Below, in pieces: positions 18,901 to 19,613 of a stretch of DNA of 64,000 nt. The position numbers and the translations under genes are program-made. Numbering within the stretch: position 1 is the first letter of the stretch; every line of letters begins with the position of its first letter. The notes under the pieces are model-generated. The model made no database searches. It saw only the letters and a list, made by a program, of their open reading frames with translations, and was not told the origin of the DNA. Origin of the DNA: Pelagibius litoralis (lineage in GTDB: Bacteria > Pseudomonadota > Alphaproteobacteria > Kiloniellales > Kiloniellaceae); the NCBI RefSeq assembly GCF_011683915.1, contig NZ_JAAQPH010000001.1, forward strand, positions 62,001 through 126,000. The letters run 5' to 3'.

Positions 18901-18920
18901 TTGGTCTGATATAAAGCAAA

Positions 18921-18957
18921 GGGCCCCGGAAGCGATGCTTCCGGGGCCCTTTTTTTG
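18921..18957 (+). terminator. Rho-independent terminator of hppA
   Basis: Thirteen-base perfect stem GGGCCCCGGAAGC / GCTTCCGGGGCCC with a GAT loop (18921-18949), then eight Ts. Confidence 0.97.
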
Positions 18958-19004
18958 TGTCTGCTTTTTGGCTGCGCGCCGCTTTGATGCTCGCGAGAGG
19001 CGCC

Positions 19005-19140
19005 AGAGCAGATCATGGTCGGATGGAATCGCCGGAGGCGATCCATCGACCGGGTGAATCTGCTCTAACTGTTTGATGGCGATCGGATTCACATGTTTTG
19101 GCGCAACCACGAAGTGGTTCCGTCAAAACATGATCCGATC
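19005..19140. repeat. Doublet of long imperfect palindromes, REP-like
   Basis: Two neighbouring hairpins of about 60 bases each. The first (19005-19066) has outer arms AGAGCAGAT / ATCTGCTCT and an inner GCGAT stem. The second (19081-19140) has outer arms GATCGGAT / ATCCGATC and inner ATGTTTTG / CAAAACAT and AACCAC / GTGGTT. They share a plan of eight-base outer arms next to TCA-containing asymmetric bulges. The second touches the bamE stop codon. This is the architecture of dispersed extragenic palindromic repeats; only one copy is in this window. Confidence 0.65.
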
Positions 19141-19613
19141 TAGTTGCCGGTGCCGCCAAAGCGACCGAGGTTGCCGAACAGCTGCTGCAGCAGCGTCAGG
19201 TCGCGCCCTTCCGTCGGGGTCACGCGGTCGATCGGTTCGATCTCCTGTGAGTCCTCCAGGTTGTAGCTTGCCGTCTGATCGACATAGCCGGCCTCGCTGA
19301 AGGTGATCACAAGCACCTTGCGGTCCACCACCTCAGGCTTGAGGAAGGCAAACTCCTGGGTCTTCTGCCCGATATAGTACCATTTGCGGTCTTGGAAGGT
19401 CGAAACGGTGGAGGGGGAGCCGAGTAGCTCTACAACGTCCTGACGGCTATGGACCCCGGGCTCGATCTCGGCAACGTCTTCCGCATCCGGTATATTGCCG
19501 CGAACCTGTACGGGGCTCCCGCAGGCGGCCAGGCCAACGCAGGCCATGGAAAGCGCAATCGCCGGCATAACAAAAAATCGACGGCGCAAGGAATGCTCCT
19601 TCGTTGCGATCAC
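19140..19613 (-). CDS. bamE: Outer-membrane assembly lipoprotein BamE
   Basis: Small lipoprotein of the BAM complex that inserts outer-membrane beta-barrel proteins. The signal peptide ends in the lipobox LAAC. The SmpA/OmlA domain follows: IEPGVHSRQDVVELLGSPSTVSTFQDRKWYYIG, then a long strand VVDRKVLVITFSEAGYV. The annotated start is GTG 19613 with GAGGGG six bases upstream. TTG 19589 (149 residues) has a perfect AAGGAG and gives a more typical signal peptide, so it may be the real start. Transcribed alone, divergent from the bc1 chaperone gene. Confidence 0.9.
   Translation of the reverse strand: MIATKEHSLRRRFFVMPAIALSMACVGLAACGSPVQVRGNIPDAEDVAEIEPGVHSRQDVVELLGSPSTVSTFQDRKWYYIGQKTQEFAFLKPEVVDRKVLVITFSEAGYVDQTASYNLEDSQEIEPIDRVTPTEGRDLTLLQQLFGNLGRFGGTGN

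Follow-up and report, generated by a model that had tools for sequence, protein, structure and literature searches.

The closest described kind of sequence to the element reported here is that of the CIR repeats (Caulobacter CcrM-associated intergenic repeats). According to the excerpted text of a 2007 review, these are alphaproteobacterial sequences consisting of two arms joined by a linker, with GANTC sites and TA termini, and they are located between genes; both their mobility and the role of their GANTC sites were left unresolved there (PMC2229807). RUP and Correia elements, which are IS630-derived MITEs, are small, non-coding sequences with a terminal TA and IS630-like ends that form one end-to-end stem, as far as the excerpts of the sources go (PMC2229807, PMC2817692). 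The REP sequences and BIMEs associated with RAYT proteins are described in an excerpt as palindromic, present in high copy number and arranged in inverted pairs, with a GT(A/G)G head (PMC2817692). Among autonomous transposons, IS630 is reported to prefer the TA in CTAG (Tenzen and Ohtsubo 1991, title as cited in PMC2170065), and the accessible part of the citing paper reports that ISY100 duplicates TA in vitro (PMC2170065). Dam methylation of GATC in the transposon ends and promoter controls Tn10 and Tn5, again according to an excerpt (PMC5390034).

The 135-bp element located between hppA and bamE of Pelagibius litoralis has the alphaproteobacterial host, the two arms with linker, the GANTC sites, the terminal TA and the intergenic position in common with the CIR repeats and, like them, contains no ORF. 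It differs from CIR in length (CIR being about 110 bp) and in having one GANTC at a fixed end position; its IS630-like ends and the stop codons retained at its insertion sites are not mentioned for CIR in the excerpted text (PMC2229807). As these repeats were compared by description, we call the element CIR-like rather than a proven CIR. While it shares the small size, the lack of coding capacity, the terminal TA and the IS630-like ends with RUP and Correia, it comprises two separate hairpins instead of a single stem, and it is further distinguished from what the excerpts say of them by the CTAG target, the GANTC in one end, termed end B, and the lack of an IS630 gene among the sequences found in the draft genome. 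High copy number, palindromic structure and the inverted pair are features that it has in common with REP/BIME sequences; however, the element carries CTAG at both ends, hairpins of 60 nt and IS630-like ends in a genome with no Y1 gene found, and is a 135-bp unit in CTAG, not a short REP with a GTAG or GGAG head. With the Dam-controlled transposons Tn10 and Tn5 it shares an adenine-methylation site in a transposon end. In the element and in IS630, however, the site is GANTC, the enzyme would be CcrM, and the location is the transposase-side end, whereas GATC and Dam are involved in Tn10 and Tn5 (PMC5390034).

Structure of the element and its genomic context

The window, i.e., the whole stretch of 64,000 nucleotides analyzed, contains the element at positions 19006–19140; it reads from end A (19140) to end B (19006) on the minus strand. 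Upstream of the element is hppA, coding for an H+ pyrophosphatase (PF03030, E 1.8e-264), followed by a terminator-like perfect hairpin (18918–18952), hairpin B (19005–19066, minus strand), which takes in one base of the flanking TA, a linker of 14 bases (19067–19080, minus strand), hairpin A (19081–19140, minus strand), and the adjoining stop codon of bamE (ORF 19140–19613, minus strand; BamE, PF04355, E 6.5e-18). Hairpins similar to that at 18918–18952 are visible by eye in congeners.

Folding of 19005–19066 yielded –38.0 kcal/mol on one strand (z –6.0) and –38.1 kcal/mol on the other (z –7.2); the corresponding values for 19081–19140 were –35.6 kcal/mol (z –7.1) and –33.7 kcal/mol (z –5.8). 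In each of these four single-hairpin folds, 0 of 200 dinucleotide shuffles were as stable as the hairpin. The two hairpins have different sequences but follow the same plan, in which GATC of the outer arm is opposite GATTCAC of the inner arm, resulting in a 3-nt bulge; they are mutually inverted. Because of the bulges, both were missed by an ungapped palindrome scan of the window. An earlier note on this DNA had described two adjacent imperfect palindromes of common plan and different sequence, one of them touching the bamE stop codon. All of this is correct, except that the supposed pair of palindromes together forms one 135-bp element. An Rfam search of the window at the gathering threshold returned two tRNAs only, and no known RNA family for the element.

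Copies in the genome and distribution in the class

The idea of a dispersed repeat, also expressed in the earlier note, was borne out. A profile search of the window and 95 stretches fetched from the same genome, a 6.03-Mb draft of 64 contigs, detected 93 separate copies, 72 of which are complete; counted over these stretches, the genome thus holds about a hundred copies, and the genome search excludes a single-copy sequence. When 40 of 125 candidate places in this genome were scored, all 40 gave near-full-length matches of 90–100% identity (i.e., there are at least 40 of them), and the number of matches rose to 48 once partial ones were included. A linker-spanning pattern, allowing up to three mismatches, matched at 82 places, and the reversed pattern used as control at none. 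Six of the 72 complete copies have cores identical to that of another copy (four share one core and two a second), which suggests recent copying, and the element itself appears to have moved recently. At nine loci, other insertion sequences abut or split repeat copies at CTAG or TTAG, and numerous draft contigs break off a few hundred bases away from copies that are interrupted or abutted by insertion sequences.

Of 289 genomes that were sampled across the class, 25, including that of P. litoralis, gave a match to a covariance model of the element. The 28 loci from the 24 other genomes are strongly divergent in sequence and keep the two-hairpin plan; a TA-type end, as judged by a loose test, was present on the left in 23 and on the right in 23 of them. 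Exact matches to the core include, among the matches listed, many records titled Pelagibius, Kiloniellaceae or Rhodospirillales. An exact core match is also found on a contig titled Anaerolineae bacterium (L308, JANQQD010000255.1), which perhaps was mis-binned within one and the same metagenome. Copies of the congeners G005 and G001 with near-identical flanks (L251/L268 and L255/L270) look like orthologous insertions that have outlived a species split; in one of these pairs, one right end is CTAT and that of its partner CTAG.

Target site and association with stop codons

Read from A to B, a copy has the form C-TA-[GATCGGATCATG...GATCTGCTC]-TA-G. The terminal CTAG is present at end A of 61 and at end B of 59 of the 72 complete copies. 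The element's own terminal base deviates in none of the 72 at either end, the outer flanking base deviates in 6 (end A) and 7 (end B) copies (TTAG in four cases, CTAA in six, other sequences in the remainder), and deviations of the TA itself, present in 7 A ends and 6 B ends, are taken as later mutations. Judged from the sequences of the ends, duplication of TA within a YTAR target accounts for this pattern better than duplication of 4 bp would. The copy in the window has kept CTAG at bamE (19140–19143), where the target TA is 19141–19142 and the TAG stop of bamE is 19140–19142 on the minus strand; its counterpart at the far end is CCAG (19003–19006), with one base of its TA changed.

The probable state before insertion is suggested by congeners, i.e., by other species. 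The element is absent from the bamE 3' stretch in all seven of them. Two (G001 and G005) show AAC-TAG-CC at the bamE stop, an intact CTAG target, and in four (G006, G003, G007 and G004) the stop lies outside any CTAG. In the seventh (G002, locus L063), a palindromic insert of another kind, about 250 bases long and flanked by CTAG at either end, is found at this bamE stop site.

In 42 of the 72 complete copies, a terminal CTAG contains the TAG stop of a neighboring ORF, with 24 such stops at each of ends A and B and 6 copies having one at both; these counts are approximate because the ORFs were predicted by a simple home-made GC-frame caller and not taken from annotation, and among the 48 stops are those of two ORFs with 62 and 68 codons. 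The remaining 30 copies lie elsewhere between ORFs, and none is inside an ORF. The 92 other CTAGs of the same stretches, by comparison, comprise 20 at stops, 39 between ORFs and 33 inside, so that stops are enriched among the copies (Fisher p 2e-6), also when only non-coding CTAGs are considered (42/72 against 20/59, Fisher p 0.008). Neighboring genes are convergent at 31 copies and divergent at 3. The insertion at bamE is a typical stop-codon insertion.

An element that begins with G and ends with C would, on insertion at the TA of a CTAG, regenerate CTAG on both sides. A TAG stop in the target would thereby survive in either orientation, and copies could collect harmlessly at the 3' ends of genes. 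Stop retention may be the reason for the gene-end distribution; the regenerated stop codon would be a simple explanation of why gene 3' ends can take up these repeats in numbers and remain unharmed. Stop-retaining CIR or IS630 repeats were not reported in the excerpts of open-licence literature among the matches listed.

Candidate transposase

The congener G002 has an IS630 element that codes for a transposase with the HTH and DDE_3 parts typical of IS630. The 3' end of this element agrees with end A in 21 of 25 bases, and its 5' end agrees with end B in 17 of 25. The matches of 7,269 TA-anchored background 25-mers (window copy excluded) averaged 6.1 for end A and 6.4 for end B and reached at most 15 and 17, respectively. 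End A is clear of background; end B alone is not, the level of 17/25 being reached by one of the 7,269 background 25-mers, with 16 IS630 ends compared. Since end B by itself does not exceed the background maximum, our confidence in the IS630 reading, and in that of CcrM discussed below, is lowered.

A scan of 24 DDE_3 loci for element ends yielded ten loci with clear GAGC ends, which represent eight distinct elements because L176 and L177 duplicate L154 and L159; the other 14 loci, three of which had clear ends of another type (L165, L167 and L179), were dropped, and an IS630 element of G058 (L192) was added, resulting in nine IS630 elements from relatives. The eight distinct GAGC-ended elements are flanked by TA, which was a search criterion. 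The termini of two identical 1,060-base IS630 copies in G025 are exactly at CTAG, and in G015 an IS630 element and a copy of the repeat abut at one common CTAG. An IS630-family mover is likely because of the end matches, the CTAG-ended IS630 copies, the abutment in G015, the GANTC at position 21 that end B has in common with an IS630 end (see below) and the reported preference of IS630 for TA in CTAG. Probably, an IS630-type transposase acts in trans; on binding to both ends of the element it would cut it out, and insertion would take place at the TA within a CTAG. The element is likely to be a non-autonomous MITE of the IS630/Tc1-mariner type with a CIR-like two-hairpin body.

The missing IS630 gene is the main weakness of the proposed IS630 mover. 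A domain search of the draft genome (64 contigs) found no DDE_3 at E ≤ 0.01, and there was no DNA match in the draft to the IS630 element of G002. DDE_3 is present in 25 of 58 genomes searched. Of the genomes matching the repeat at the DNA level, 11/19 have IS630, only moderately more than the 14/39 among those without a match, "without" being defined here and below by DNA similarity; by the covariance model, G025 and G032, counted as free of the repeat on this basis, do contain the plan.

Other movers have to be considered. At no fewer than seven loci of the P. litoralis genome, insertion sequences with unrelated ends, which we take to be of the IS5 and IS701 families, abut or interrupt copies of the repeat at TTAG or CTAG; several kinds of insertion sequences therefore use such sites in this genome, and the element might be a MITE of another YTAR- or CTAG-targeting DDE family, for example of the IS5 or IS701 type. 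The visible ends of these insertion sequences, however, are unlike ends A and B, and we regard this origin as very unlikely. We consider it equally unlikely that the repeat is a REP/BIME-like element moved by a RAYT (Y1) protein, as the earlier note had suggested, with inverted hairpins, CTAG at each foot and no target duplication. An inverted pair of hairpins with a bulge and a tetranucleotide at the foot does resemble BIMEs, and some carriers of the repeat have Y1 genes. However, no match to Y1_Tnp (PF01797) was obtained in the P. litoralis genome at E ≤ 1, by a search that was positive in 10 of 14 control genomes including Caulobacter and E. coli, and Y1 genes are not associated with carriage, as they occur in 10 of 19 relatives with a DNA-level match and in 19 of 39 without. 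The tetranucleotide, moreover, is CTAG and not the GT(A/G)G head, and the ends of the element match those of IS630. A RAYT/REP origin was rejected on the basis of the lacking Y1 gene, the Y1 counts and the IS630-matching ends.

GANTC sites and CcrM

The copy in the window contains three GANTC sites spaced 30 bp apart (A-to-B positions 54, 84 and 114), namely, in this order, at 19086–19090 in the inner arm of hairpin A, at 19056–19060 in the inner arm of hairpin B, and at 19026–19030, starting at position 21 from end B; the average GANTC density of the window is 1.95 per kb. The three sites, again in A-to-B order, are kept in 57, 57 and 59 of 60 copies from the same genome and in 62, 68 and 71 of 74 related copies. 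In 68/72 copies of P. litoralis and 67/74 related copies, the third site begins at position 21 from end B, whereas position 21 of end A has a GANTC in only 1/72 and 1/74, respectively. For the 28 class-wide loci, a position-21 GANTC was found in end B of 19, in end A of 3, and in neither end of 6.

The same offset occurs in IS630 elements. Twenty-seven plasmid records, chosen for variety from 60 listed of 1,018 matching ones, comprised 17 alphaproteobacterial and 10 other elements; that of Acetobacter (L403), which has no clear terminal repeat, was dropped. The transposase-side end of the resulting 25 alphaproteobacterial IS630s (9 from relatives, 16 from plasmids) carries a GANTC at position 21 in 24 cases, the exception being Komagataeibacter (L404), and the other end in none. 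These 24 sites are GAATC (20), GAGTC (2) and GATTC (2). Columns 21, 22, 24 and 25 of the transposase-side end are 96–100% conserved, as compared to 80% for column 23 and 32–52% for columns 16–20. A second GANTC is found within positions 26–40 of the transposase-side end in 15/25 IS630s and of the other end in 0/25 (L392–L402, L405, L421, and relatives). None of the nine non-alphaproteobacterial IS630s with clear ends has a GANTC at position 21 (Piscirickettsia, L418, having been left out for lack of a clear repeat); in the IS630 of D. radiodurans, GANTC is at position 20 of the 3' end. As only Azotobacter among the non-alphaproteobacteria has a GAGC-type end, common descent alone could explain the contrast between the two groups. 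Outside positions 21–25, end A leans to the GANTC-free IS630 end (mean 10.9 vs 8.5 of 20), and end B shows no lean (mean 10.0 for the GANTC-bearing end vs 9.75 of 20).

P. litoralis codes for a CcrM homologue of 376 amino acids (E 1e-160 to the CcrM structure 6PBD) with methylase and RAMA domains; the latter domain was detected in all but one of 41 genomes. By analogy to Dam, we tentatively suggest, as a possibility short of an even chance, that CcrM couples alphaproteobacterial IS630s and CIR-like repeats to the cell cycle via the GANTC at positions 21–25. Methylation at this site of the transposase-side end might affect binding of the end or expression of the transposase, and movement would then follow the replication fork. 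If so, CIR repeats would have inherited their GANTC as a control site of transposons, and the control of Tn10 and Tn5 by Dam would have a counterpart in the Alphaproteobacteria in that of the ends by CcrM. Both the movement of CIR repeats and the role of their GANTC become testable through the IS630-like ends, the CTAG target and the GANTC offset common to the repeat and IS630. Excerpts of open-licence literature, among the matches listed, contained no report of GANTC at a fixed position of IS630 ends.

Conservation of base pairing

Pairing of the hairpin arms was analyzed in 74 copies from 15 related genomes. Over 52 pairs, 90.9% of the cells hold, as compared to 26.7–41.8% when the partner was slid by 1–3 bases, and two-sided changes occur in 25 of the 52 pairs (12–17 in the slid control). 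An independent consensus fold of 46 copies showed compensatory changes in 18 of 37 pairs. The numbers of G-U (107) and A-C cells (126), counted with one mostly A-G pair left out, indicate no RNA-type bias and hence give no hint that a single RNA strand is under selection, although this is a weak test with copies in both orientations. DNA hairpins, strand-symmetric selection on RNA, or palindrome correction are possible causes of the conserved pairing.

It is very unlikely that the element is a 3'-UTR or DNA structure kept for its function (protection of mRNA 3' ends, a cruciform, or a cluster of methylation sites), its mobility being incidental or past, for although the retained pairing, the position of 42 of 72 copies right at a stop codon and the three kept GANTC sites favor such a function, the element is absent at bamE in 7/7 congeners, identical copies reside at different places, and the pair changes lack an RNA-type bias. 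A functional role as a secondary effect, alongside mobility, is compatible with the interpretation as an IS630-type MITE. The protection of the bamE mRNA 3' end envisaged in the earlier note may be such an effect, the element being located between the stop codon of bamE and the terminator-like hairpin. In some relatives, a four-way fold of the whole element is the minimum-energy fold.
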